Below, in pieces: positions 17,201 to 58,500 of a DNA stretch of 64,000 nucleotides. A model generated the notes under the pieces. That model saw nothing but the letters and a program-made list of their open reading frames with translations. It made no database searches and was not told the DNA's origin. Source of the DNA: Ascidia mentula (taxonomy: Eukaryota; Chordata; Ascidiacea; Phlebobranchia; Ascidiidae); assembly GCA_947561715.1 (NCBI GenBank), contig OX387205.1, forward strand, positions 15,133,001-15,197,000, given 5' to 3'. Made by a program: the position numbers and the translations under genes. The number at the start of each line of letters is the position of its first letter. Positions within the stretch are counted from its first letter, which is position 1.

Positions 17201-20200
17201 TCATGGGTACGAGAAGCCAGCAGCAGCCGCACCAAGTCGTTGTCCATACAATGCGAAGGGTGAGCAGTAAGGCCCGGCACCTGCTGCTATCGGGATCGGC
17301 GGTACACCGGAGAGTTGACCCAACATATTTGAGCTCTTGTACGGGTGATATCTGCCTACTGGGCTGTGACTCCTGGATAGGAAATTACTGGCAGGGTTGG
17401 TCGCACTCGGTGAAACGGCGGCCAATGCAGCGGCGTGTTGTGATAGGTAAGCTGCGTACGGGTTGGATGCCAGTTTGTCGAGTCCGTTCAATAAATAACT
17501 GTTCGTGGCGCTGGCGACGCTGGTTGAGGGCAGGGCGTGCGTCCTGAGGTGGTTTGAAAGTTCTTCGGCTGTTGCGAACCTCTTCCCGCAGCTCCCAGAC
17601 CCAACATTGACCCAATTACAAACATGAGGCATCGGGTCGAGTCCGTTCCTCGCCGCTGCCGCCATCACCATCTGAGCGTAGTAAGTACTCGCTGCTGCCG
17701 GGTTCGCGAACGGGTAGAATGGGAGCTGACTCGACTTCAAACCCTCATAACACGAATTCCCGGGTACATGGGGTCCTTGGCAACCCATGCAAAACGGATC
17801 GTACAGGGACAGCATCGAGATCGCTTGTGGAGGTGACGATGGACTGCTTCCGTGTGCTGTGTGACGCGTTGTGTCGGTGATTGAGGTTGTAGTGAGGGGG
17901 CAACCGCATGAGCTGCTGAACGCTCGGTTGGGTGACGCAGTGGGAGAGGATTTCTGTCTCAAAGCTCCGTTGGATTCCCCGAGGTTGTGTTTTGCGGATG
18001 TGTCGTCATAAGATGTTGTGTGACGTCGTTTAACTTCCGGTGCAGTCGCGCGTTTGTGTTCGGCGCGCGACGCCTTGTCGTTCTTGATCCCGGCGATTAA
18101 GGAAGATTCGACAGATTTAATCGAATCCGGGCAAGATTTAATCGAATCCGGAGACGCGCGCGATTTGGGGGGAGATGAGGCCCCAATTCTTGCAGGGGAT
18201 TTTTCCCTCTTCGTTGGAGCTCTGGGGTTGATTGGGGACACAGAGCCACGACGGGGTGAGTTACCACCCATGGGTGGGGTCCTGGATGCTGGGGTTGTAG
18301 GTGGTTTATGGAGGGTGACGATACTGGGGGACCGTTTCCTCTCCGGGTAAATTTTGCTGCTGGACGATGTTTTCGACGTGTCTTTGCCGATCGCACTGCA
18401 GGTTTGAGCCAACAAAGCTAGGGGGCTGTTCTTGGCGTCAAGCTGTAATGAAAACAACATATGTTTAGACTTAAGTACTTAATCCCTGTTCTGTAATCAG
18501 CGTTTTGTCTAACACTTATACAACTAGGGGATAAACAGTTTTTTTTCGCATGTTGACAATTAAATTTTTACCATTAAATTGAAAAAAAAAATAGTTTAAT
18601 AAATTACTTTGACCAATTATCGGCATGCGCCAATTACTCGGGAGGTAATGATTTAGTCGTGAAGCTGACGTAGCAACAAAAATAAGATTACAACATAGGA
18701 ATGTTTGGCACACAAGCTTGCTATGTTAATCTCTTGACAAGACGTCAGGGCGTTTATTAAAACCCCATTCATGTTAAACTGCGGTAGCTGTCGGCTAATT
18801 AGTTAATCCAATTAAACCGATTCGAGCTTAAAGCGTGGTCAGGTTGCCGCGGATGTGAGGTTATTAACCTATATCAGGAGGCAGGAAGTCTTTGTGGACG
18901 GTTTATTGCATGAATTAACCTGAAACCAAATGCGGACAATCCATTTTACGACACATTTTATCCCAAAAACCTCCTGTTAACGACGGGTTTCAAAAATGGC
19001 CGCCGCTTGTACATCAGTGTACGAACCACGTCCATTAAGAGGTCACAGTTTAAATAATGAGCCGACAGCTGCATTGAAATGGCCAAATAATTGCCCCCTT
19101 TTCATGGTGGAATTTGTGACCAAACGAGAATCCGTTCTTTGCTTACATCAAACGGAGTGAAACCCAATAAAGAGAAATGGGCGTAACTGCGTTGAAAGGA
19201 TTCAATAAAGCGAAGCGTATAAAAAGCACGGCTAGCAGGTGTAAAGGAAATTTACATTCCGTCGCTTGGAAAGATCAAAGAGCGTCGCCGATTGATTGAC
19301 GCTTTATTGCGAGTGCGACTAGGCGATAAAACCAGGCTAGTGGTCGTAAATTTTCGACCTCTTGATGACGAATCCGGCGACCAATCTTTATCCGCGGTGA
19401 TATCGTCGCGCGCATTACGTAAAACAAATAAGATGGTGCCAAATATCTTTGACAAATCGACGCCGGTTGCCCGTGACACAATAAGATCACCCCTATGGTT
19501 CGAGAGATCAAAGACCCATTGTGAGGTAACAATGGACGATCGCGACAACACTGACTGCTTATCAAATTCACTCGACGAAACGCGTCGTGGATGAACGCTT
19601 TCTGTCAGCGCGGGAGCTTCGAGAAAGCGGTTATTGCGTTCTGCTGATGTGAACGCGAATCTATCGTTGATTGACGTTTGTAATGAAGGAAACTTCAAAG
19701 TGCTGACATGGTAAGTGGAGCATCTATGCCAAACGTAAGCTATCCATCCCCCCACAAGACCCCCATCAATCGCGTCAAATCTACCGAGTCTTGGAACGTT
19801 TCACCCCCTCGAACTTCTCGCGTCCGGCGCGGTAATTATCTCCACACTCCGTAAAAGATAACTCATGCATGTCTGTGCCCACCCAACCTTGTAATGACGT
19901 CATTGTCCTGTTGGAATAACTTCGGGATTAATAAAAGGGCCGGGGTGTTTTGCAGTAGCAGAGTTTCCCTTTAATAGGTGAGGAAATGAGAGAGCCTTGT
20001 GTTGTGACGTTGCGGACAATGGGGTGACGATTGATTGCTTGGGAGGGTGCTGGGTTGTGAGGAAGGGGTGGATTACTGTGCTGACTGATCGGCCTTCAAA
20101 TGCTAGCACGATCCCAAAATATTTGAAAGCAAAGGGCAGAGACCCACCAAGAAGTCTGCGTTTTGTCACAATTTAATCCCGATTCTATTCTCGTGGCTCA

Positions 20201-30300: not shown

Positions 30301-32594
30301 GGACACTTTCGGGTCCACGGTTTGTTGAACAAACAAACGTTCTTGTTTTGTACTTAAAAAATATCACGTTTTAACGCAAATACTTTGAATCCGGCTGTTT
30401 CCGTCAAACTCTGTGAGTTGTTTTTAGACTATTTGAATGACGTCGGAGCGAAGGGCGTTCATCTCACTTTAAAGTCATAATATTTTTACAAACGTTGGTA
30501 ACGCCCCCACTTCACATAATGTGGGGAGTTGAACCAGGGGTTGTGTTGGTGCAAAGACGGGAGGTTGATTCGCAGTTTGACGTTCTATAATGTCCAGATG
30601 TCGTTTGGTTTATCGGAGAAAATACAGCTGTAAAAACGGACAAAAATATCACATGTATTTGTCGTAGTGTTCACCCGTGTGCTGGCGATAGTTTAGCTTT
30701 GAATAAAAATTCCAGGTTTGAAAACGTTTTGAGAAAATCACATTCAACTGCTATGCGTTTCCATATTTCTCTTATTGAAGAATTTATGGAGTCCCGGGGT
30801 TTTGTGGAAATGTCCGTTCTAATCCCCATAAAACATAACCCTGTCACAGAGCGGGTGATCGAACGTCGCGATTCGACGCGCGTTCGGGGACAAACGCGTC
30901 ATAAACCTTCCTATTGTCATAAAACATAGACATCACACTTGAAACGCCCGTCAAAACATGACGTCACGCACATCGTCACGGTTGAGCGACGCCACTGACA
31001 GATGGAGTTTAGTGGGGAGGTGACCCGGGTGGTGGGGGGGTCGCGACCCTTCATCGGGGATTCTATTTGTCACAATCGCTTGAAGCGACGCCGCGACGAA
31101 ACAGTCTCTTTGTCGCGCTATTAAGTCGCCGACGGTTCGTTTGTTGTCGTTCGCGCGGCGTTCGATTACAAATCAAGCTGTCACGCACGTCACAATAGGG
31201 GCATCGCGCGTTTGGACGGGCCGAGAGAGAGGGGGGGTCGGACTACATGTGCGGTCCTCAAGACTGCAAAGTGACATTCGCGCTTTTCGCATTCCAGAAT
31301 AACGCCAGTTTCCGGTGATTGAACAATCGAGTACATCCGCTTTTAATTGTTACGTATAATGAATTGTGTTCGACAACTTTGTTCGAAAAGTTTGTTTTCA
31401 GCGAAACGCCCGAGCCAACTTTGGTTGAAAAGGTTGGAGAAGTTTAAATCTATTCTGAGCCAAGATTGAAGCAACTTTCTGACAAATTGAGACGAACGGA
31501 GATCGCCAGAAACGATAAGTTTGCTCAGTGAGGGTTTGTATCGGGTTCAGACACGACTGGAATTATTATTATTGTTTTCTTCATAGAATATTCCGATTAA
31601 AATTGTATGTGATAAATGGTGTGCTGTGTTCGAAAGTAATCTACATTCGATTATCACACCTTGTATGACATCACAATGGTGCGAGACTTGTTACTTAGTA
31701 AAGTGGGAAATCCCCCACAGCTGTCAGTTATTCCTTTTCAGGCAGTTCTAATTTTTCGAACGAAATATCTCGAACTTTTGACACCGTATTGTTACCGTTA
31801 GTTGGTTTCGAATTAATTCAAGTGAAAATATATTCCGAAAGTTCGAAGCAAACCCGGCCGACGCACGCGCGGAAGCGAAAATTCTAACAAAGAGGAAAGA
31901 AACAAAAATCTCATCTATTAGTGACCCCCCCTCCCCATTCAACCCCCCACAAGTATCGGTTCCAAAATCCCCAATGACTCACTGTTGTCTTGTAATTGAT
32001 GTTGACAGCCACAAGTAGGTGAACAAACAATAGCTAACACGCGCGATTCAACACGTCACAGTGAACACCATTGTTCAGTCACAATTACGAAGCATTCAAA
32101 CAATATGATTTTAATACAACGCGGAATTTAATATAAAATACCACGGTTTGACCACTTTGTCGTCTTTATGAAAAATAAGTTGATAAGGGAATCACTGCTG
32201 ACTCTTTGCTGCCACTTAACGGATTTATTTGTACAAAAGTTTCGACGCTTTTTACAGTTTATTTCCAACATGTTTCGACACAAAGCACTTAAACACTTTA
32301 TATATTTTAATAATGAGAAGCCAAGTCGAATTCAGATCGAGTATTTCCGTTAAAAATCACTCGACTTTCTGCGTCCGAATATTTTTCACCGATCGAAAAT
32401 ATTTTGTCTCTCACTCGTTTCAGATATTTGATCTCCTTTACCTGGAAATAAAACAGATTTTTTCACAAAACTTTAAGTTGGCATTAAAATAAAATTAATA
32501 AAACAAGGAATATTCTGGTTAAACAAACACCACGTTTAAAAACAATCATTCAGCGGAATTCTGAGCTCCACAGTCATTAGAAAAGGTGTAGGTT
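21344..32594. other. Gene-free, CpG-rich region upstream of ZNF503/703
   Basis: About 11 kb with no supported coding exon, tRNA or large repeat on either strand. The longest frames (28,501-28,944 and 24,229-24,462) have no recognisable domain or splice partners. GCGC-rich and CACGTG-type sites are frequent. It probably contains the zinc-finger gene's promoter just upstream of 21,343 and distal regulatory DNA; this is inference from position. Confidence 0.55.
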
Positions 32595-32600
32595 TTTATT
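32595..32600 (-). terminator. Candidate polyadenylation signal for the long tetraspanin gene
   Basis: Minus-strand AATAAA about 86 bases beyond the tetraspanin stop codon (32,686-32,688). Further AATAAA-like hexamers follow around 32,490-32,510, so the true site is uncertain. Confidence 0.45.
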
Positions 32601-32685: not shown

Positions 32686-35066
32686 TTAGTCATTATATAT
32701 TAATAAAACATGGATCCAACCAACCATAACATAGATGCATAAGAAGTTTATGAGGAAGAGTAGGATAATCCCGAGCCAAACTCCCACCAGAAGAGGAGTT
32801 TTATTCCGCGCCCACAACGACATCCTGTCGATGCAACCCCGGCCGTGACGTAATCCTATAAAGTTGCGGTTTCTTTAAAAGTTTCCACTCAATATTTCCA
32901 TGTGATAAATTATGACGGATGTTCGCTAATGGTTCGTTGTCATGACAATGAAGGTTCGTTGTCATGACAGCGATCCTTGGAAGTTGGAAACCACTGGTGT
33001 TCAGTGATACCAAAAAAACGTTCCTCCAGAACTCGTTTTATGACGTGGACAAATGTTAAGTAAAATAGGTTAAAACAAATAAACATAAAAATTTCCCAAA
33101 CGTTTTTACAACAATATTAAAATCAAATCACTTTCACTTTGCAAGCAAAGTTACTTCACATGAACAATAAACGTGCAACATAAAATGACATCGATAAAAC
33201 CATAAGGGTTATCGAGTCAGTCGCCCTAAAACTTATTGCTTACCTGCTTTTGTCGTACAGGGAACCTGAAACACAAAGGAATCAAATTAATGATAATTTT
33301 ACATTGGAACGAAAACACAAGAAAAATTAAATGAATTTATTCACAGACAAGCTTCACATAGAAATCATACCGTGGTTTCAACACTTTTGCAGCAAGTTGG
33401 AGGAAGGTCACAAGTTTGTCCTTCACCACATCGATATTCCCTGCGCAAGAATACACGTGTTATGACGTATAGGCGAACATATTGTAGCGAATATGACGTA
33501 ACAATGGTTATAATGTTAAACTTACGCTGTGTTGTTCCAGTCACTGTAGGTTGAAAACCCACAACATTCGAATGTTTGTTGTATCTGGTCGATGGTGAAA
33601 GTCGCTGCTTTTCTCGTCGTGTGGTTGTACTCACCCACGAGGTTGGAAAACGAATTCGTCGTCTAAATATTCATCGATTAGCGCAAACGTCACGTGATCA
33701 GGTAAGTTTAAAACTCACGAATTCCTGGATGGTGGTTTTCATAATCCAAAAGGTGATTCCCCCACCGACGAAACAAAAACAAAAAATCACGAGGAAACTC
33801 CCGAAAAATCTGGAAAAAATATTTATGTTTTAACTTTTACACAATGAGGAGGTCAAACGGGTTTATCGACAGCAGGACGTCATCAAAAAAAATAGATTCC
33901 ACCCAAAATACTTGACAAAGGGCGATCAAGAAAGTCTGATAATTGTACTGAGTTTACTGAGCTTTGTGTGCTTTAGCGTGCTGGGCCCATAACCCAGAGG
34001 TCGATGGATCGAAACCATCCTCTGCTACGCTGTGATCGTATATAGTGGTTAGTACTTCACGTTGTGGCCGTGACAACCCAGGTTCGAATCCTGGTCACAG
34101 CAAGCTTTTAAATTTTTTTTTCATTAATTTCAATTATTTTATTCAATCAAACAGAGCACTCAACTCTTCCAAGTTGAAAGTGAAAAATATTTTGATGCCT
34201 TATACTGGTTACTAGTTGTTGTGTATCTTTTGCAGCACGTAACACCTAGGGTACAAAGGGGAGCGGTGGGAGACGTCAGAGAAACCTTTTATACGTTTTT
34301 TTTAACGATAAAAATACAGCAGCTTACTCTTATTTCCTACCCAGCATTTAGTGCAAAAATAAGCTGAAGAAGACGGTGTTTCAACCTTTTTAAAACCCGA
34401 AGTTAACGAGGATACAAATGAAAGCGACGAAGAACGTTACGAAAATCTTTCAACAATGAACCAGGTTTTGTGATAATCAACATTGGTTTCAAACTCACTT
34501 CAGGAGGCAGATGTTGTCACGGAGGAATCCCACAGCTCCAAGGAAACAAACAAGAGTGAGAATTACACCAAGGACGAATACAGGGAAGAGAGGATCGTAG
34601 ACGACCTTCCAGACATCCATAACTCCACTAACCATCATGTCAATGATGCCCCACAATCCCAAACCAATCAACGCCAAACCAACCTGATGGAATGAAGTTC
34701 GTGTAAAATATTAAAGATGAGTTAAACAGAATTAAATTACCCCACAATTGTGACTTAAATTTTTTTTCGTAAACACAATATTATTTGTGTGTCAAGATGA
34801 AGCTATTTTATTGCACTTATTTATTGGTAAATCTATTGACAATATTCAACGCTAAATATTTGACACAGGTGGGAACTTATTTTTAAATTAATGTTTCTGA
34901 TATAGAATCGTATACGATTGCTGGAATGTCTTACTTACGATTAGAAATATCAGGTTGATGATGAACATGAGGTGTTTGGCGAACAAATGACAACAGTTTC
35001 GTTTCATGTACTGTCTTTTGTACCACTCGATGTATTTGTCAGAGAGACCACCACCGTTTAGTTCAT
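32686..35066 (-). CDS. Tetraspanin core (C-terminal exons of the long gene)
   Basis: Seven exons encode the family core. TM1 is in 34,939-35,066 plus the next exon (HLMFIINLIFLI|VGLALIGLGLW). TM2 follows in 34,499-34,683 and ends FLRDNICLLK, a typical 'LREN..LL' tetraspanin loop. TM3 is in 33,719-33,809 (SFLVIFCFFVSVGGGITF). The large extracellular loop has ECCGF at about 33,560, then YRC, QTC, TCC, VPC and GC, giving eight cysteines in the order of the TspanC8 group (TSPAN5/10/14/15/17/33), which in vertebrates escort the protease ADAM10. TM4 is GVWLGIILLFLINFLCIYV, followed by a short tail ending IYND. NHT, NNT and NKT are possible N-glycosylation sites. TspanC8 membership is an inference from cysteine count and spacing; the usual 'VPFSCC' is LPPTCC here. 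Confidence 0.9.
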
Positions 35067-38000
35067 CTGCGTTGAAAATGTATTAAAATTTGAAGTTTTC
35101 CTTTTAGTTACCAATTGAATTGGAAACGTTACAGTTTTTGATGGTGGTTACTGTTCCAAGGTCATCAAACTATTGACCCGCCCGACTCAAATAAATATAA
35201 TTATTTTATTTTATTTAATATGTTAGTCACTAAATTTAGGCAATTTCATTTTCTTCTTTACATCCTGTTTATTGACGACGAAACTAAGAATATTGCTTTT
35301 ATATCCGCAATACATGGAGACTAGTTTGCTAACAAGTATTATATGCAACTTTTGAGAAAAAGTTTGGTGACCCCTGTTATAACTGGACGTTGGTTATTAT
35401 TCAGCAAAAACTGTTCATAGCAGATTAATTTAACCTGATTTCTTTAGTTTCCGTTTCGAATTTGTGCTTTGTAAGTCGTATTCCGAATCACTTGAAGAAT
35501 CTGATTCTCTAAAACCACACAAACATGTTAAGATTCGCGTTCGACTGTGTTTGTTACGTCACAAGTGACTTACTCCTCTTCCATCGCCTGTCTTTGTGCG
35601 TCATAATTGGTTAGATCGATTCCACTGTCACCACCATGACGTAATACCTTCTGATCGGCAGGCAGGGATCTGTCACGTGGAAACAATGTAATGACGTATT
35701 CCATGTTATGGTGATTAACATGACACAGCAATACTTTATAAAAGGTTTAAATCTCAAAACAGTGGTAAGTCCGAAAGAACACGGATACATATATTTACTT
35801 TTTGTAAAATAGACAGTTTTCTAAATTCTCAACGACATGACAGGAATATTAATTGTGGTGACGTCATTGGAAATTGGTTTGTTGTGTCGTCATTTGAAGT
35901 ACAACTGTGTTTAGGGAATTTAACCACATCTTACCTGTAACGACCATTGTGTAATGGTTGTATATTAACCACCATGTTATTAGGATGGTTCGCTTCTGCT
36001 GGTTGTACGATCATGGAACGGGTGGTTGTAATGGTTGGTTGCATGGCTGGTGCGTTGGCTTGCACTGGAACGAACACTGGTTCGACTGGTTGATGCACAA
36101 CTGGTTGCTCTATTTGTACTGGTTGGAATGGTTGAAATGGTTGAGATTGTGGTGCGATTATGACCTCAGGGTTGACGTGTTTAGGTTGAGTCTCAGATTC
36201 TGTTTAAACAAGTTTTTTGTTGACAAAAGTTTTTTTAATTAGCAAACAATCGTTTAAGGAAGTTGTAAATGCATGCTGACACCTAATCTTATCTCCACTG
36301 ACAACACAAAGTCGGTTTGGCAGTTATAAATGCTTTGTATTGGTTTGAAACTCACACCCGTGACTCATAACAATTTATCATAAAAATATGTTTGTTCTCT
36401 GCCAAAAGTTTTTCGCCCAACTAAAATCTAATTTCTTATCCTGCAGTAAATCACAGTTTAGAAGTTGTTTTATTACGTCATAAACAGCTTCGAACACGAA
36501 CCTTGTGTTGGTGGGGGTAGATCACTCGTATCTACAAGGATTGAAGGCATCTCAACCACTCTATGTTGTGGGGTTGTAAGTGGGGCCAACTCTGTTTCAC
36601 CCATGGGTGGTGGAGGGTGGGTTATGGCTTGCATTGGAACCATCGGTTGAACCTGCAGTCATACAGAGGATCGGTTAGTTGGTAGAAGGTTGATATTGTA
36701 GGGAATATTATGTGGCGAATGTTTCATTGGACGCAGGTTATTTTGCAATATTCTAGGTTGGTTACATTGATATATTGCAGATTTTTGTCATGCAGTTGAG
36801 TGAATGAAAGACGAACATCGTCATTACCTCGAAGAAAAAACGGTCCGCAATAAACTATAAGTTCATTAATCCAATCTTACAACCTGCAGTGGGGAAAAAT
36901 TTGGTGGATCGTCGAATAACTCAGGACTCATAGCATCGTCGGAAGATGGCGCTCGAGATGCAGTGGTAATGTTGAGATTGATGACGTTCGGGTCGTCCGA
37001 TGGGATGACGTTGATATGCAGGGGGTTCGGAATAACTGTAGTGTCCGTGTCAGAGTTTGTTGTGGCTCCGACAGAGAAATGAAATTGTGGAGCCTGAATA
37101 ATGGATGGATTATGTTTGGTTTGTTTGAGTAAATATTTCTCAGGGGATGTTAGGGCTGATATTCTTGTTTGCGAGTTAGTTTCAACTATTCCAGATCCGC
37201 AGTTTCATCAACCATTAAATAAGCATGTCGCTTTACATATGTCCAAGAACTATATCTATATGTATGGTTTGGTTACATTGCGCCATTAGCTGTGCAATTC
37301 CACATCACGTTTCAACTCACATTTGCGTCGCTTTCCGACTTTCGACTCTTCTTATTGGTCGGTTCCTCGTCACGTGGGTATCCTCTTGAAGCAGGGAAAT
37401 CCCCATCCGCCCCAGTTGGCCCCCTGGTAACGACGATTTGAGGGACTTGGCCAAACAAGATGGGGGGATCCTTCTCGAAATCTGGAACACTCTTGTTACG
37501 CCGCAAGGGGGCGCTCTTCTCAAACGGGAGGGACGCCATCCGCCGCTTGGAGCCGCTAGAGGGGTCGGTCAAGGGTATCGCGATTGCGTTGAGACTCGCA
37601 CGCTCTCTGTGACGTAACAGTTATGTTAGGTTTGTTTAGGAATCACGACCGAAACATGATCAAAATATACAGTGATGAATTCACTAACCAGAGAAAACCA
37701 TGAAACATTTTATTTGAATAAAATGCCCAGCAATGCTCAACATTTAAATTGACTAAAGTTGTGTTGTTTTCACAGTAATTTAGCTTAAAGATATCGTATA
37801 TTTATATTCTTGCTGTATTTACTTGGGAACCGGTTTATCTTGTTTGATTCTACGTGGAAAGGTGTTGTGGGATTTGCTGATGGCTGTGCAGATCTGGTAA
37901 TCCTCATTTACAATCGGATTCAACATCCCGTCTGTAAACACGATACATTGCAATGATGCTGAGATTACGTTTGGAATTATGGGAAAAACTCTCTGAGACA

Positions 38001-41000
38001 ATCGTGTAGTTTCGCTTGCAAGAAAATTAGTGAAAAGAAGTTTTTTATAATTTCCTCATCGCTAACTCACCAACTCTTGGCTTTGGCATATCGCTGTCAG
38101 TTTCCAAATCTGCAACCGTGTCATACGGGGTGACGTCATGATGAAGGGGGTTACCCTACGTATACAAAGATATGTCGAATTTCGATGCAAAACATTTCAA
38201 CTGAAATTTCCACTTAAACTTTTACCACTGGTTTCACTGCAACAAAGTGGGGGATCTACCTGTGGTATTTCTGTGGCGTCGGTCTCTGAGTCGAAGTCCG
38301 TGTAATCAGAGGGATAAACTTCACATAAATACTGGCTTGCGTCAAGAGATTTCGGAATGTCGCTCGGTAAAGTTGGAAATCTGTTAAAACATGAACTGAT
38401 GAACTCAGTAGTTTGATCTAAACCTCATTCGTTACCACACCGGGATTCGAACCCATGTTCTCGGGCACCGATCCCGATCAGGTTTCGTTCTGGGTTGAAA
38501 ATTTACCTAATATCTGATTCCCCAATGGATATCTCATCATCGCCATCTAGCGGATCTCGTGTAGTGGGAAGAGGGTCATCGTGGAGGGGAGATTTTCTCC
38601 TCCGTTGGGAGTTACGAGTTGTTTTGATCGGTAGATCCGGACCTTGAGGGATCGCACTGAACATAACGTAGATATGATGTTTGTTGAAATAACATAGTGT
38701 AAGGTTGAACAAAGATTCGCGTGAATCATGCACGACATGAACTTGAGTTTGTAATTCTGCCCAATTTATTAAAATTAAAAATATCGCTTTGACCTGTAAC
38801 TTAACAATATCTATTATGTTACCGATGCCGTTAGGCATGTTCATGACATAAAAACGATCGAAACGTCGAATAATCAGCGGTTTTATATTGCCAAAGGGCC
38901 CTTTTTGTAACACAAACAATCTGAACAAATCTCCTAGAGTAAAAATGTCAACATTATTTGCTTAAAATCCTCATTTTTTTATCTTACAAGGTCGGTTGTA
39001 ATATTTCTCCTACTTAGATCATTAGCATCACAATAACATAGAACAGAATATTGATTAGAATCGGTGTGAAGTAAGGAGAATGCAACAAGAATTACCTGAA
39101 CTGCAAGGGTTCGACCACTGGCACTACAGGAACCTGCAAGACAACAAGTTCCCATTACTTGTGTTTCATAAACTCACAGATCAACAACTTACAACTTGAT
39201 CATCGTCAACTGCAAGTTTGGCGAAAACCTCAGGAAAGGCGGATGTCAGATTCTTCTGTCTTGGTAAACTTTTGTTGTAGGAAGGATAAACCACGTCCAC
39301 TTGCTTGGACTTTTTATCCGGTTGCGAATGAAGATCCAAGCTAGAGATCACATAGGAGTTAAAACAGGGGTCAGCAACTTTTCACGGGCCAGAAGTTTTA
39401 AAAAAATATCAGGCCGGCCAGATTTGTTGATCCACTAAATAACAATAACCCCCTTTCTAATAAATTTAAATTAGTGATACTGACGAGTTCTTTAAATGTT
39501 AACTTTCCTCCATCTCCCCACACCTGTTAGCTTCCCTTATCAGTCTGTTAAGGTCATCCATTTCCTCATGACCTCCATCGAATTGATCAGAGTCATCGCT
39601 GTTAAGTTGGTTTGGAACGTTTGAATGAAGACTCACCATCGCCTGACGCCGGTAAATGTCGTTCAAATTATCCTTCGGGCGGCTGAAGTAAACATGTTCA
39701 AATGTATGGTGATGGCGATTAAATAAAAAAGTCTTAACTCTGACTTCAGTCAAATATTTTTACCGCGCAGAAATGATCTTGGTTTTGTAAAAAATAAGAG
39801 AAACAAACGGTAAAAAAATACTCAAACAGCAGAAATTGTGATTCGTAAATTTTAGAATTTGGAATTAAGTTTTGAACAAATAAAAAAATTGTGTAAGCTG
39901 CAGACAGATGGCCACTCTATCAACCTAAAAGTTCCTTCTTGCTGATCATAAAAAATTGTGTTGCGCTAAATGTAAACACAGAGAATGACGTCATCGTTGG
40001 AGAATGTTTCTGTTCAACAACAAACCTCAATAATTACGCATAATTATCGGTAAAGGTCGACGTCTGTAGGAAACGACCAACTGAGAAGTCGCCTATAGCT
40101 ACGGGCGATACAACCACGTGTAACTTGATACGGTGTACGTGTGTTCCACGTTGGGAGTGTTTCAACAACATAACTTGTACGTAACAATAAGAAAAGGGCA
40201 TTTTTACGAAATCAGCTTGTGGAAAATTTCTGCGAAAAGCATTAAAAAAACTTTCCAGTTCACCATAACCTCCCCGACGTAGACAAGTGTGAGAACATAT
40301 GATACCTTGGAACGTTGATGACTCTTGTTGGTGGGTCGTGGTATTGATGGGGGTTCCTCGGTCTGTTGTGTTTCTTGTGTTTCGGTTGCTGGAGGGAAAA
40401 AATAAGGGAAAAATTATCATGCAAGAAAGTGGCTACTGTTTCGTCCCATAGCTAGATCTGTACTTGTAACGTTTATTAAATTATTTTACTGCGGAGATTA
40501 ATGGAGCTGTGAAAAGATTTGTTGCTAAATTGCAAGAAAATTTGACAAAGATTATTAAAAACGTGTTTTTGTAAAACCAAAAAAATGCAAAAAGATTCAT
40601 ATCAATAGAAATCTTACCGGTTGCGAGAAATCTACAATCCTATCCGGCTGGTGGCGCACTGGTGCCGGCCTCTGTTGTCTGTGGGCAGGAGGAGGTTGGG
40701 GAGGTGAGAGTTCATCATCATCCGACCATCTTCCTCTTCCCAAGCTTGCAGTCTGTAGATGGGAACAAGATTGTATATGAGGTGGATGAAGATGAACTCC
40801 TGGAAATCCTCATTTACTTCCGGTTTCGTTTGAGTAATATCAGGATGTCAGAATGCAACTGATTTATGACGTTACAATCACCATTATCAGATAATTGTTG
40901 TTGAAACCACATTTCCTTACAGTTTGTGAGTTTCAGAATATTGGGGGCGTCACGTTGATTTTTTGAGATGGGATTGAACTTACTTAAACGGAGGAGTTGC

Positions 41001-42847
41001 AAAAAAAATAAAAAAACGTGACGTATTTGATTCAACCTTGTCATTTACTCGAAGGATGTTTGGAACAATTGGATCGCTCTTCGGTCCTGTATTCGACTTT
41101 CCTCTCATCTTGGGAGGTAGAGCCGGAGGTTGATCTGCATTGAAATCATCCGCGCTTCTTGCTTTGAGGATTGAATCATCGAAATCCTCTTCAGGAACAA
41201 CATCTTCCATCGGGACTTCTAAAACAAAGGAAGACAATATATAAGCATTCGAGAATAACAAGTGTGTTTGTTTCGTCACAGCGTTGCTATGGTGCCTCAA
41301 ACAAAATAGAATCGGAAGTTTGAGAAACGATTGATTTCAGTAATTTTACCAGCAACGATTAATGACGAAGTGAAGTATAGGTTGTTATGTCATAAAAGAG
41401 TGAAGAAATCAACAATTTAAATTGACTCGGAAACTTTAATGGTTTAATCTCTGCCCATGATAATATTTTGCTTCATTTCTATTTAAATTTGTCATGTTTA
41501 TCTTTGGAAATTTGACTTATTTTACGACATCTTTCAAGGAAGTTATTTCATTATTATTACAAGAAGGCTCATCCGACAATAATATTGATAAACATCAACG
41601 TTTCGGTTAATCTGCAGCAGACTACATCAGGATGTGATTAAATAAATGGGTGCATAGAACATAAAAATCACATTTATTTCTTTATTATTCGGAATAAAGT
41701 GTATTTTCCAACTCACCTTGAGGTTTCTCGAGTTGTTGCTGTTTCTCTCTTTCTTCCAAAGCTCTCTTCAAACACTGAGCCAAGTCCTCATCATCATCCC
41801 CACCTGGCGGAGCCTCCTCCGGCTGTTGTCTAATCACTAGAGGGCCAGAATCCTCATCATCCGACGATAAGCTGCTGGAGGAGTCGGAATCGTAGTTGTT
41901 TCCATGGAGATCATCATCTACTGGTTGACTCGCTTCTTCCTCTTGTTGATGGGGATCTTGGCTTGGAATTTCCGGAGGTTGCAGATCAGCTTCAGGTTCC
42001 TCACTCCTCTGTGGGTCTGGATGCTCCTCGTTGTTAGGGGTGATGTTATTTTGCTCATTGTCCTCTTCAGGGAGGTCTTGATCAATTCTCTCCTCATCAT
42101 CATCTCCATCCTTTTCCTGATCTTCCACATTAGGATCCATCTTATGATCCTCTTCAGGTACTCCTGATCCTTCCTCTTGATGTAGATCCTCAATCTCATC
42201 ATCTTCCGGTATCTCCTCATGTGGGATTTTTTCCTCCTCTTCTTCTGACTCCGAGTTGATACCAGGATTATCGGTAGGTGGCGCCACCGGCTCATCAATA
42301 TGATCATCTTCTGACTCGGAGGAAGATGAACTGGATTCGGATGAAGATGTTTTGTCGTCATTGTCTTCCGTCTCTGATTCCGCTTCTTCCTCAGGAATAA
42401 TATCATCTTTATCGTCTGGTAACATTGCAAATGTATTAAATATTTAACAACAACACGAGTGAGCATTTGGTTTTGGTGGTTAAAGTTAAGAAACAAAACG
42501 TTGTCGTTACAAATATAAGAGTCTGGTTCAAGTTTTGCATAGAAACAATTTTGTTATACTTTGTGTAGTTTCATCTTGATCTTGTTTATCACCAGGCGTC
42601 ACTGGAGGATTGTTTGGTTCTTCATCTTTTTGATCAAGTTCTTCACCAGGCGATGGATCCTGGAATGAAATAGACTCATTATTCTCCACATGTAATGCTT
42701 TCAACGTTTAGAGGTAAATTTAATGATAATCAATATAAGAATTTAACCAATTGGACAAATGTGGCAATGGATTTTTTTTCAAATTTCTGTGCCGCGTAGT
42801 ACCCATAGAAACCGACTTACATCTGCGATATTTGCGTGGAGATCCAT
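32686..42847 (-). CDS. Tetraspanin with a ~1,060-residue disordered N-terminal extension
   Basis: Twenty-six exons, all phase-compatible, sum to 3,909 bases (1,302 residues plus stop). Exons from the 5' end: 42821-42847, 42560-42659, 41717-42415, 41049-41218, 40618-40752, 40306-40388, 39524-39682, 39193-39340, 39096-39133, 38507-38656, 38260-38380, 38071-38155, 37823-37931, 37321-37606, 36884-37093, 36502-36652, 35935-36199, 35574-35669, 35435-35508, 34939-35066, 34499-34683, 33719-33809, 33526-33662, 33371-33440, 33244-33265, 32686-32855. The start is MDLHANIAD, split after codon 9. Residues about 10-340 are Asp/Glu/Ser-rich, about 340-1,035 low-complexity and Pro/Gln-rich, and about 1,060-1,302 a four-pass tetraspanin. 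No domain was recognised in the extension. By tetraspanin topology it would be cytoplasmic. Least certain joins: the donor at 39,524 (AG|GTGTGG) and whether the tetraspanin also has its own promoter. Confidence 0.78.
32931..32972. repeat. Direct duplication of a 22-bp unit
   Basis: GGTTCGTTGTCATGACA occurs twice in immediate succession with a 22-bp period. It lies in the last intron of the tetraspanin gene, close to the final acceptor. No function is implied. Confidence 0.7.
33960..34027 (+). pseudogene. Eroded initiator tRNA-Met (CAT)
   Basis: From GCGTGCTGGGCCCATAACCC onward the sequence matches the 3' two-thirds of a eukaryotic initiator tRNA-Met as I remember it: anticodon stem CTGGG/CCCAG around loop CCCATAA, variable region, T-arm GATGG/CCATC with the A-type loop ATCGAAA, and the acceptor 3' strand CTCTGCT plus A. 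The 5' part does not fit: AGCTTTG pairs poorly with CTCTGCT and the D-arm is about five bases short. It is one base upstream of a tRNA-His and antisense within a tetraspanin intron. Confidence 0.75.
34029..34102 (+). tRNA. tRNA-His (GTG)
   Basis: Complete 74-base cloverleaf. Acceptor GCTGTGA pairs with TCACAGC, followed by discriminator A. Anticodon stem TCACG/CGTGA encloses loop TTGTGGC with anticodon GTG. T-arm CCAGG TTCGAAT CCTGG is perfect. The D-arm (GTATATAGTGGTTAGTAC) looks slightly longer than usual. CCA is not encoded, as normal for eukaryotes. It lies antisense in the intron between tetraspanin exons 34,499-34,683 and 33,719-33,809. Confidence 0.93.
35150..35388. mobile_element. Possible hAT-type miniature element
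   Basis: The right end, read on the minus strand, begins ACAGGGGTCACCAAACTTTT, very like the CAGGGGTC(A/G)(C/G)CAAC termini of many hAT elements. A weaker inverted counterpart (CAAGGTCATCAAACTATTGA) sits near 35,157, with AT-rich DNA between. No clear 8-bp target duplication was found. It is in an intron of the tetraspanin gene. Confidence 0.35.
39363..39430 (+). mobile_element. hAT-like terminal fragment
   Basis: ACAGGGGTCAGCAACTTTTC followed by GGGCCAG and GGCCGGCCAG is the typical start of hAT-derived repeats. No matching opposite end was identified nearby, so only a fragment is called. It lies in a tetraspanin intron. Confidence 0.4.
39891..39940 (-). repeat. Worn relative of the hammerhead-bearing element
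   Basis: GTAAGCTGCAGACAGATGGC followed by CACT is nearly identical to the arm of the element at 47,591-47,742. Read on the minus strand it contains the 3' half of the ribozyme (stem III loop TGGCCAT, CTGTC cleavage site, stem I strand), but the GAAAC box reads GATAG and the CTGATGA box is lost. It is in a tetraspanin intron (sense strand). Confidence 0.75.
41599..41630 (-). repeat. Hammerhead-like relic motif
   Basis: On the minus strand the sequence reads CTGATGT, a GTCTGCTGCAGAT hairpin, then CCGAAACGTTG. It has the layout of a degenerate hammerhead core with stem II and the GAAAC box, but the first box is altered in its last base. No stem I was seen. It lies in an intron of the tetraspanin gene. 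Confidence 0.4.
41717..42415 (-). CDS. Poly-acidic/serine exon of the long tetraspanin
   Basis: This is the largest exon of the gene (233 residues) and almost entirely Asp, Glu, Ser, Pro and Gln, with runs such as SSSESSSSSSESEDD and SESEEEEEK. It ends in a short helix-prone segment (LAQCLKRALEEREKQQQ) before a GTGAGT donor. Such sequence is expected to be unfolded and rich in casein-kinase-2 sites. Two long plus-strand frames over the same bases are mirror shadows. Acidic low-complexity frames can occur by chance, but this one is bounded by consensus splice sites in matching phase on both sides. Confidence 0.75.
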
Positions 42848-43759
42848 TTCAAGTCGTCCACCAGAATGGCTGGTTCATACACAATATATATTGCTATGGT
42901 TTGCTTAATATCTGTTGCAAAGGTAAACAAACAGATGTGGAGTAGTTAAACATCTTCTATTCTGTTCACCAGGTCATATAGTGATTAGTTTTCCACTAAA
43001 CTGATTCATGTATGTCACGTGACATAGGTGAAAGCCTGACAGTCTCGTCCTCAAACTGATATTGAAGACTTTCAAATAAAATAAAAATACTGAACAACCA
43101 AATCAACACAATGCAAACTCTATCCAAGTCCTTCAATTAAATATCGTGTGTATCCCTTACTAGTTCACCTGTTTACCATTGGAATTATAACTGGATGATT
43201 TAAAGCTAGAGATTCACTGTGAACTACAACGCAACTGGTCGTTACGCGGAATGCTTCTCGTCAAACCCGTTCCAATCTTTGCCCTTGGGGCTTTTAACCT
43301 GACGCGTTCTGGTTGGGCCACATAATCGACGCGATGCCGCATTGTTTCGTCACAAGGCAATGTTAACCATCGTCGTCAACACTTGCTCATTGTGACGTTG
43401 TATCCGGTTGTTTAACCATTTCTTTAAACCCCTGAAATGGTTCAATATTTTTGCTGCTTTACATAGTGTTGGAATATCACGTGATGGTCGTTGAAAAGTG
43501 CATTGGTTTATTGTTACGTCACAATTATCGAGTTCTTACAACCGACAAAAAAGTTTTTCGGTATTATGAATGGGATTCGTCAGATTAATGACTCACTTTG
43601 ACCTTCACAATATCACGGTTACAACGAACACTCTTGTACAATGTTGCTTACATGCTGCTCGGACAAACTTCTTAAAATGCTAACCATGCACCACTGATAA
43701 TACCTAATACAACTATACCAATGAGCTGGTATATACAAACCAAATCATCACAAATAAGT
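42848..43759. other. Intergenic: tetraspanin 5' side to BOLL 3' side
   Basis: About 0.9 kb between the tetraspanin start codon and the BOLL polyadenylation signal. It must hold the tetraspanin promoter and any 5' untranslated sequence. Palindromic TCACGTGA-like sites occur near 43,016 and 43,486. No further exon was recognised. Confidence 0.5.
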
Positions 43760-55500: not shown

Positions 55501-58500
55501 TAATTTTTAGTGTCAGCTTCGTCGTTGCAAAGTTCTTTGGATGATGAAGATGATGTTGTTGGGGTTTGTGACATCATAATTGAAGTGGAAAAAATTATTT
55601 TTTTCTGATATCTGCTTAAAATGTTTTCTAAATTAAAAAGCTGAAATTTAGTTTATTGCAACCAAGTTTGAACAATTTAGGAATCTTTGGTTGACGTCAC
55701 CAGAGGAAGTTCACAAGATGACGAGTGTGACGTCACAAACCAAAGCCAACAATCAAACGAGTGCGACGACTCGTTCGAAAGTCACCAACGTGTGAAATGT
55801 GATGTCACAAACGAAAGTGACGACATTACCCAATTGTCCAACGAGAACTTGGACACGTCACAATCGGCTTCGGATCGCTCCCTGGAAGAAAATAACAAGT
55901 AAATAAGAATGCTGACTCAGCAAGAATTGTTTGAGTTATTTAATATGTAAAGGGGGGTCAGATCCATGAAGTATACAAACCAGTTACTTTTTGCTTAAAA
56001 TGTGTTCGAAATATCCTTGCATCTGGTTAATTTATTTTGAACTTCTATCGTGTTCCCCATAACTGATCAAGCCACAGATAATTTACTGAAAATATGACGT
56101 AGATCCCCTGTATCGTGGTAAGTTCCACAACTATTACCAACTCCATCTATCCTTTCCTCCAGATCCCTCAACCTACGGAGTCTTGCCTCCTCATCCCAAA
56201 CTAAACGGAAGAAGGTTTCACCAACATCCGAGAGAAGGAGGAGCGCCAGACTCCGCAAAATCCTTCCTGAATCCGAACATCTTCCCACCAAAAAACCCAA
56301 ACGATCAAAAAAGGAAACTCGTGACGTCAAACGCGATGACGTCAAAGACGAGGTGGTCGTTCTCGACGACAGTGACGTCAGCCAGGACGAACGTTTTGTC
56401 TCGGCTTGTGATGTCACAAGCACGGATACGGATGATGACGTCATTGACGTGGATAAGAGCGCTTATGGCGTAGTGGATGTTGCTGAGTCTTCAGCGGATC
56501 AAAGCAGATTGCAGGAGGAGCAAGATGTGGATGAAGAGGAGAAGGAAGTCTCAATGGAGTCGGATGATACAGAGATCGATAAAAGTTCAATCGATGAGAG
56601 CGTTTATGAAGTTGTTGAAATGACAGATGTCTCGATGACGTCGAGTAAACCTCACAACGACGAGTCCAACTTGGAAGATGTGGATGCAGAGAAGAGTATG
56701 TACGAGTATGTGGAGGTTGCGGACTCATCAATTAATCCTCATCATGATAAATCAATCTCCAAGCAAGCAGAAGAAAGTATTTATGAAATTGTTGAGATGG
56801 CTGAGATGTCGGTGAATCAAACACGTCCTCTTGAAGATGAGGAACAAAACGATGTTGAGAAGAGCATATATGAGATGGTTGAGGTGGCAGAAGTCTCCAT
56901 CCACCCGGAGCATCGTGATAACCTGGAGGAGAGCAACATCCAGGAGGACACAACTGATGAGGATGTTAGTGAGAGGGAGCAAGATGATGTGTTTGTTCCG
57001 GCAACGGATGCAAGTATATATGAAGACATTCAGATGGCGGAGATGTCGATCAATACCACAAACCTCCCGGACTCCTCAGGTTGGGACATGTTGCCATGTT
57101 ACACAGCAACCTTTGTTTTGTAACAAAGGACTGCTTTTAATTTGTTACAAATGTAATTGTATATTTTTTAGCAAGAATTTTTAAGCAACAAAGCTAAGAT
57201 GGGATTTGGTCAGAATAAAAGCACAATTTCATGAAACTTAATCGTTCATTATTTATAAGTTGTATACCCAGCTAACTATTTAAGACAAGTTCAAAATTTG
57301 GCTGAATAATATCTGAAAAATTTCATCATGTCCAGGAGAAGAAGAAACTACAGCTGATGAGGAGATAAAAGATGAAGATAAAGATGAGGAGCAGATCAGT
57401 GATGAGGAGATGAAGGATGTGGAACGTGAGTTGGGAATCCAACCTCTTGATACAAGCTTCGATGGTGATGAGGAACCGATGTCCGCCGAGAAGCCAGATC
57501 ATCCAGATGAACAACCATCCCTTGCTCCTGGGAAGATTTGTGTTGAATCACCACCAGAAGAGGAGGTTACAAGGAGAATTGAGACACCGAACATCAAACA
57601 CTTCCAGGATCAATCGGATAAACATGATGAAGTTGGGGCTCCACTTCGAAGATCTCTTCGCAAGAGAGTTTCCACACCTAAAGTGGTTAGCTCGAACAAA
57701 GTGAGTATTTCAATCAGTATTGATTGATTTTACAGTTTTAAAACTTTTTCCCGTACTCCCCCTGAAGAGTTTGGTGGTTTAACCTCCCCAATCGGTAAAA
57801 TATTTTTGCAACCAATTGATATTGGGCTCTGGCAAGTAAAATATCAACGCAATGAATGAGGTGATTCAACAACACCAGTTTCCTGGGTTTACACTCACAA
57901 CGTAAAATATATATTATCTTGTTCCCAGGTGAGTGGCTTATCTGAGAAGGGAGGAAATGGACGAAGAACGCGGCAACGAATTCTCGAACAAAACACAGAA
58001 TCAGAGAGGGAAATTCCCAAAGAAGCGAACTCGCCAACTAAATCTAAACTGGATCGAAATCCTGTGGTGGTTATTGTGCGTGAGGAGAAACACGAACGAA
58101 CCCCTGACGTTGAATCTGGTGTGATTGCCGATGAAACACCTGAAGTGGTGAGTGTAGAGAAACCAGATGGTAAAACCCCGACGGATGAGCAACAAGCGGT
58201 GATAGCTGAAACCCCGATGATCGCGGGGGAGACTATAACGTCCAAAACCGAGGTTAGAAATGTGGACAGTGGGACAAGACAGGAATGCAATTCACCGACA
58301 TCGACCGGTAAGTCTAATAACGTAATACGGCAGATGATGTTTTTGCAGAAATTGTTAATATTTGGAACTGCCCAACTCCGTTTACGGAAAATTAATATTT
58401 TCGTATACATTATATTAAAGATCACGCTAATGCTTGTGCGTAATTTTAGACACTTAACAAGTAAAAGACAGAATCGTCGGTTCGACCAAACAAAACAGAA

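Follow-up and report, generated by a model that had tools for sequence, protein, structure and literature searches.

The question raised by this locus of Ascidia mentula is whether one gene encodes a tetraspanin preceded by about a thousand acidic, disordered residues, or whether two neighboring genes are being read as one. The window is the whole stretch of 64,000 nucleotides (C73:15133001-15197000), and genome searches refer to a scale of 195.8 Mb in 79 contigs.

Gene Model

Exons were assembled by eye at canonical splice sites on the minus-strand sequence. The joined model runs from 42847 to 32307 on the minus strand and contains 27 exons (4,005 nt, 1,334 codons and residues), which are separated by 26 introns, all of the GT-AG type, with lengths of 56-689 bp (median 229 bp). 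There are no phase errors and no internal stops. For exon 5, an acceptor near 40800 was dropped since it breaks the phase, while the one at 40752 preserves it, as judged by eye and then on the joined translation. The features are listed below, the exons being those of the joined model and any additional evidence being given in parentheses.

42821-42847, minus strand: exon 1, start codon, MDLHANIAD (gene-finder start at penalties 8-10 only)
42560-42659, minus strand: exon 2, acidic tail
41717-42415, minus strand: exon 3, acidic tail, 233 codons, top coding score of 45 nats (codon model)
41049-41218, minus strand: exon 4
40618-40752, minus strand: exon 5
40306-40388, minus strand: exon 6
39524-39682, minus strand: exon 7
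39193-39340, minus strand: exon 8
39096-39133, minus strand: exon 9
38507-38656, minus strand: exon 10
38260-38380, minus strand: exon 11; the codon split by junction 10/11 is Arg570 of an RxxTxP motif (motif scan)
38071-38155, minus strand: exon 12
37823-37931, minus strand: exon 13
37321-37606, minus strand: exon 14, two RxxSxP motifs at residues 697 and 711 (motif scan)
36884-37093, minus strand: exon 15
36502-36652, minus strand: exon 16, Pro-rich
35935-36199, minus strand: exon 17, Pro/Gln-rich
35574-35669, minus strand: exon 18; the RxxSxP at residue 977 straddles junction 17/18 (motif scan)
35435-35508, minus strand: exon 19, final tail-only exon; an alternative in-frame donor ends it at 35492 (gene finder)
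35067-35434, minus strand: intron 19, 368 bp, the one-gene-or-two junction (splice scoring and signal scan)
34939-35066, minus strand: exon 20, end of the tail (DELNGGGLSDKYIEWYKRQY), Met1056 and first half of TM1 (splice scoring)
34499-34683, minus strand: exon 21, remainder of TM1, small loop and TM2 (hydropathy)
33719-33809, minus strand: exon 22, TM3 (hydropathy)
33526-33662, minus strand: exon 23, large loop with CCG (loop comparison)
33371-33440, minus strand: exon 24, large loop with CDLPPTCC (loop comparison)
33244-33265, minus strand: exon 25, large loop, 22 nt
32725-32855, minus strand: exon 26, final loop cysteine and TM4 (hydropathy)
32307-32441, minus strand: exon 27, C-terminal tail and stop, VKEIKY...ASHY* (acceptor score)
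32224-32263, minus strand: two AATAAA past the stop, first bases 32263 and 32229 (signal scan)

The sequence-only reading had described 26 exons and 25 junctions ending at 32686. Its start ATG at 42847 and its in-frame joining are retained here, while its counts and its end are replaced by 27 exons, 26 junctions and an end at 32307. The 32686 ending is obtained when the donor of exon 26 is read through for 12 codons to a TAA (counted by hand), and an AATAAA is found downstream of it at 32600. It is not favored: exon 27, which contributes a 44-residue C-terminal tail, is the better C-terminus, because its acceptor has the highest leave-one-out score (8.9) among the 26 of the gene and because its stop is followed by the AATAAA signals at 32263 and 32229.

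A home-made gene finder, to which the model was not supplied and which is crude, was run over a range of penalties. At penalties 8-10 it returns one gene with the start at 42847, in which every exon shares at least one boundary with the model and 16-17 of the 27 are exact; exon 19 is shortened to the in-frame donor after 35492. At penalties 3-6 it over-predicts, starting at 43687 with 32-46 exons (11-15 exact), and at penalties 11-12 the start moves to 42425, with 11 exons retained and 7 of these exact.

Several other elements were noted in the window. A tRNA-His (GTG) lies on the plus strand at 34029-34102, within intron 21 and antisense to the gene, and a second tRNA-like stretch is apparently present near 33970-34020, seen by eye only and called by neither tRNA tool. 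A 419-residue open reading frame on the minus strand (17201-18460) gives one weak C2H2 zinc-finger match below the Pfam cut-off and is otherwise Ser/Pro/Ala-rich; we take it to resemble a NET-family (ZNF503/703-type) factor. On the plus strand, 56353-57123 encodes 256 acidic residues with repeated KSIYEMVEVAE-like units and has no Pfam match.

Coding Potential of the Tail

For the codon model, 20 open stretches from this genome (4,800 codons) served as the training set, namely 19 of 30 kinase loci and one tetraspanin, the other 11 kinase loci being excluded as near-duplicates or because of stops. As a separate observation, contigs C1 and C2 carry clusters of many kinase-like matches, which cover only about positions 44-259 of the profile (e.g., C2:1165284-1410737 and C1:1997934-2798870).

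With this model the tail scores 0.19 nats per codon over residues 1-275, 0.07 over residues 276-770, and 0.03 over residues 771-1035, the core 0.00, and 11 of the 26 introns, read in three frames, -0.30 to -0.43 with stops counted at -5. Among the three forward frames the chosen one scores highest in 17 of the 19 tail exons, with a tie in one and a loss in another. It is the top of all six frames in 13 of the 19, compared with 4 of the 8 core exons, so that the tail seems no less coding than the undoubted core. The choice among synonymous codons, taken by itself, carries almost no information (z = 0.4, 1.5, 0.8, 2.0, and -0.4 over five segments), so the score depends on amino-acid composition and on the lack of stops. 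It is on amino-acid and stop-codon evidence, then, that the tail is coding.

These data also bear on the possibility that the locus is mis-modeled, i.e., that some tail exons (e.g., 5, 6, 9, 13, 17, and 19) are unused or differently bounded, which would give a somewhat different tail. Six of the 19 tail exons are not the top of six frames, codon support is weak for exons 5, 6, 9, 13, 17, and 19, and the gene finder even at its best settings misses 10-11 of the 27 exact exons and prefers a shorter exon 19. However, the phase is preserved at all 26 junctions with GT-AG sites, and we consider such mis-modeling unlikely.

One Gene or Two

The sequence-only reading had also taken the conservation of phase over 25 junctions to speak against a merger of two genes. 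The continuity of phase is confirmed, but as an argument against two genes it is weak, because only junction 19/20 decides and chance agreement there is 1 in 3. In leave-one-out scoring, the donor of this junction ranks 15 and its acceptor 12 among 26, both being average for the gene, and these scores are matched by 20 of 675 GT and 9 of 580 AG decoys. The 57 nt (19 codons) from the split codon of exon 20 to Met1056 score 5.8 nats; not one of 4,335 overlapping intronic 57-nt windows, 1,302 of them open, scores as high. As no in-frame ATG precedes Met1056 in exon 20, these 19 codons, if translated, must obtain their start from an upstream exon.

The first intron of ancestral tetraspanin genes sits in TM1. 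It is described as being of phase 0 (PMC2650405). Exon 20 likewise ends at a phase-0 intron within TM1, at most one residue from the intron of a Tspan15-like gene of the same genome, and for this reason it is probably the counterpart of the first coding exon in ordinary tetraspanins.

The genome moreover contains the exact spliced-leader (SL) sequence of Ciona, as given in PMC7986045, in 1,091 + 1,066 = 2,157 copies, with 0 + 0 in the control, and trans-splicing of the SL probably takes place. The copies are partly arranged in tandem arrays with a unit of about 720 bp (719-720 bp in those at C1:15239666-15297871), whereas 264 bp is reported for Ciona intestinalis (PMC7986045). The presence of the leader makes operon mates a real possibility, one that had not been weighed previously. 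The first gene would then encode a soluble acidic protein whose reading frame closes with KKSG* immediately after exon 19, and the second a normal tetraspanin that starts at Met1056, its mRNA receiving the leader at the acceptor of exon 20. Consistent with such an arrangement, unspliced exon 19 reads on to KKSG followed by TAA, intron 19 contains four AATAAA or ATTAAA signals, exon 20 ends as an ordinary first exon would, and Met1056 is at a place where an ordinary tetraspanin could begin; fused annotation of operon genes is, in addition, given as a known error in PMC7986045.

However, the poly(A) signals are weak evidence, since they are also found in 10 of the 25 other introns, and the coding character of the 57 nt before Met1056 and the average quality of both splice sites argue against two operon genes. 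A leader joined at 35066 would also leave a two-codon ATG-AAC-TAA ahead of Met1056. The gene finder prefers the joined gene to the split one by 7-8 nats (7.0-8.1 at five settings, and 7.1-11.7 at the three over-predicting ones). Finally, 138 bp lie between the end of the last AATAAA and the acceptor of exon 20, of which perhaps some 110 bp would be left after cleavage at the usual offset. In Ciona operons the median gap is 1 bp, and cut-offs of 68 and 84 bp were inferred for them (PMC7986045). We regard the operon arrangement as a serious rival, though quite an improbable one.

Compatible with one gene is a further alternative, in which the locus yields both the long form and a short tetraspanin, the latter from Met1056 or from a hidden first exon. 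Met1056 (MKRNCC) is in the usual position and would serve as a conventional start, and isoforms with differing N-termini are described for C. elegans tsp-14 (PMC8827444). On the other hand, the best candidate for a short first exon within intron 19 has a donor score of 1.5, compared with 1.6-6.9 for the real donors, and is no better than candidates in several other introns. Two products from this locus are thus conceivable, although we would not expect them.

The sequence evidence favors one gene, and the reading with the best support is that of a tetraspanin to which some 1,055 tail residues are attached. A single continuous mRNA across tail and core is accordingly what we would expect with fair assurance.

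Tetraspanin Core

The core comprises residues 1056-1334. PF00335 matches residues 1066-1288 with E = 2.6e-34 and 119.3 bits against a curated cut-off of 32.1, being the only Pfam family above cut-off, and the core has four hydropathy peaks (1068, 1113, 1136, and 1269) and a CCG in the large loop between TM3 and TM4; the earlier assignment to the tetraspanins is thereby borne out. Nine distinct solved sequences are matched, the best being Tspan15 (8esv, E = 3e-18), followed by Tspan7. We take 8esv to be the Tspan15-ADAM10 complex. A paralogue search with the core gave 9 matches, 7 of which are at its own locus, and the other two are 28% identical.

The large loop contains eight cysteines in the order CC-C-C-CC-C-C, which is the TSPAN15L pattern according to PMC2650405, and its C-x-x-P-x-x-CC spacing is the same as in both TspanC8 loops of this genome. 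The core may on this basis be a working TspanC8 that binds ADAM10, in which case the tail would position the complex and hence the cleavage of Notch and cadherin; that the nearest solved sequence is Tspan15 (8esv) points in the same direction. The loop itself, however, shows identities of 35%, 35%, and 37% with the loops of three TspanC8 proteins and of 34% and 39% with those of two non-members, and the CGVP and CGY motifs are lost. In the reference pairs the TspanC8 members are 54%, 54%, and 42% identical to each other, compared with 25-41% for a member and a non-member; the comparison covers a small sample of manually transcribed loops. According to PMC5473022, the variable region of the loop is the best-conserved part of TspanC8 proteins and is essential for ADAM10 binding. 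Since the loop is no closer to members in spite of this conservation, the core is, judged by its loop, a tetraspanin whose cysteine frame resembles that of TspanC8 proteins, and it is not filed as a TspanC8; a working TspanC8 appears rather doubtful.

Of the seven core introns, four are of phase 0 (after exons 20, 22, 24, and 26), while introns 1, 2, 3, 4, 4b, 4c, and 6 of TSPAN15L genes are all given as phase 0 (PMC2650405); the position compared was that of the TM1 intron. A search for the Cys-rich family of ADAM10 gave no match in this genome, but it is uninformative, since it gave none in any control genome either and introns may interrupt a domain of 56 positions. The CCG...DW pattern gave 13 matches, the same number as in the control, while the TspanC8 loop pattern gave three against none in the control. 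Two of these are TspanC8-like, and the third, on contig C71, was not recognized as a tetraspanin. The two, L061 (C73:3392500-3394700) and L063 (C52 near 8664918), have canonical TspanC8 loops with CGVPFSCC that are 54% identical to each other and 54% and 42% identical to that of human Tspan15. L061 presumably resembles Tspan15, and L063 Tspan5/14.

Composition of the Tail

The tail (residues 1-1055) contains 20% D+E, 9% K+R, and 13% Pro and has a net charge of -119, of which -85 is found in residues 1-275. It can be divided into an acidic zone (1-275), a zone of mixed charge (276-770), and a Pro/Gln-rich zone (771-1010), so that the long acidic and then Pro/Gln-rich stretch reported before TM1 is recovered by composition and hydropathy over residues 1-1055. 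The disorder proposed for it is also upheld, negative FoldIndex values covering 80% of the tail and 17% of the core. The 19-residue hydropathy reaches at most 1.19 in the tail, compared with more than 2.5 at each of the four core peaks, and shows no hydrophobic span in residues 1-1055.

No Pfam domain was found above cut-off in residues 1-1055. Matches to Pfam SPRING1 (E = 0.12) and NCBIfam MamI (E = 0.4) fell below cut-off and were dismissed as noise. The search of solved structures with residues 1-1035 gave no relative, its single match (E = 0.78) being taken as noise, and no second copy of the tail was found in the genome, where 17 of 17 matches are at its own locus (best 16 candidates scored). 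RxxS/TxP motifs, which we take to be 14-3-3 motifs, occur four times (residues 570, 697, 711, and 977) compared with 0.8 expected; the uncorrected P is 0.007, and as 13 motif types were tried, the excess does not survive correction for multiple testing. The basic-directed [RK][RK]x[ST], CK2, two SH3, EVH1, WW, YxxPhi, dileucine, SxIP, NPxY, DSG, and PTAP/PSAP motifs of the tail do not exceed shuffles at 0.05.

Proposed Origin and Role

The explanation that we find best as a whole is that of one gene for a 1,334-residue tetraspanin with a fusion history and a cytosolic, disordered docking tail, and we incline toward it with somewhat better than even confidence. What the sequence establishes is the exon structure, the coding signal, the identity of the core, and the order of its cysteines. 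The topology, the history, and the single mRNA are what we infer, while the docking and the partners are conjecture. An ordinary tetraspanin gene would have gained 19 upstream exons, joined in frame onto the ancestral first coding exon, with the ancestral start Met possibly retained as residue 1056. Residues 1-1055 would be cytosolic and largely disordered, a location suggested by the lack of a membrane span before TM1, by the basic residues just before TM1, and by the topology of the family.

Through its core the protein would be located in tetraspanin membrane domains, where the tail could act as a flexible, multivalent docking platform that positions the complex under the control of phosphorylation. 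By conjecture, multivalent phosphorylation-controlled docking is the most likely use of so long and disordered a tail. Adaptors of the 14-3-3 type may be the first candidate partners to consider, in view of the four RxxS/TxP motifs, which we treat as a lead and not as a result. The complete proposal, in which a tunicate gene fusion gave rise to a disordered scaffold some 1,000 residues long, anchored in the membrane and binding 14-3-3-type adaptors phospho-dependently, which thereby provides a cytosolic regulatory arm for tetraspanin domains, is speculative, and we would not count on all of it being correct.

If true, a regulatory-arm architecture of this kind would be undescribed for tetraspanins in the literature covered. 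The function of the TspanC8 tails was stated to be unknown in 2017 (PMC5473022), and a tail more than 10 times the length of the longest one cited for this family (77 residues) would make the capabilities of a tetraspanin tail directly testable, in the chordate group that contains the laboratory model Ciona. The importance of the fusion would be decided by whether it is the oddity of one species or an old tunicate trait. Should the locus instead hold two operon genes, it would be a useful warning about fused tunicate gene models.

Comparison with Known Tetraspanins

A tetraspanin with a similar tail was not found in the literature on tunicate and long-tailed tetraspanins and on TspanC8 tails, as covered by titles and the openings of abstracts, with subscription journals mostly outside. 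The length given for tetraspanins is 200-300 residues (PMC2650405). The N-terminal tails of 10-20 residues quoted earlier for ordinary members agree with most of the family (10-15 residues in PMC5473022), but not with TspanC8 proteins, fungal Tsp2, or L001, a single-exon tetraspanin of this genome with about 27 residues before TM1. The predicted tail of about 1,055 residues is far beyond the lengths cited for all three.

The TspanC8/TSPAN15-like proteins (Tspan5, 10, 14, 15, 17, and 33) share with the present protein the four-pass core, the CCG, and the order of the eight cysteines (PMC2650405) and are known for longer tails, with a mean of 29 and a maximum of 77 residues (PMC5473022), compared with about 1,055 here; they differ in the loop, which is no closer to theirs than to those of the other tetraspanins compared and lacks CGVP and CGY. 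Fungal Tsp2 also has a large intracellular N-terminal tail, which is, however, of 83-200 residues and is reported from basidiomycetes only in PMC2278132. C. elegans TSP-14A/B likewise has eight loop cysteines and an N-terminal extension that alters its location, the extension of TSP-14B being of 24 residues compared with about 1,000 here (PMC8827444). TSP-14B shows that where such a tetraspanin is located can depend on an extension at its N-terminus.
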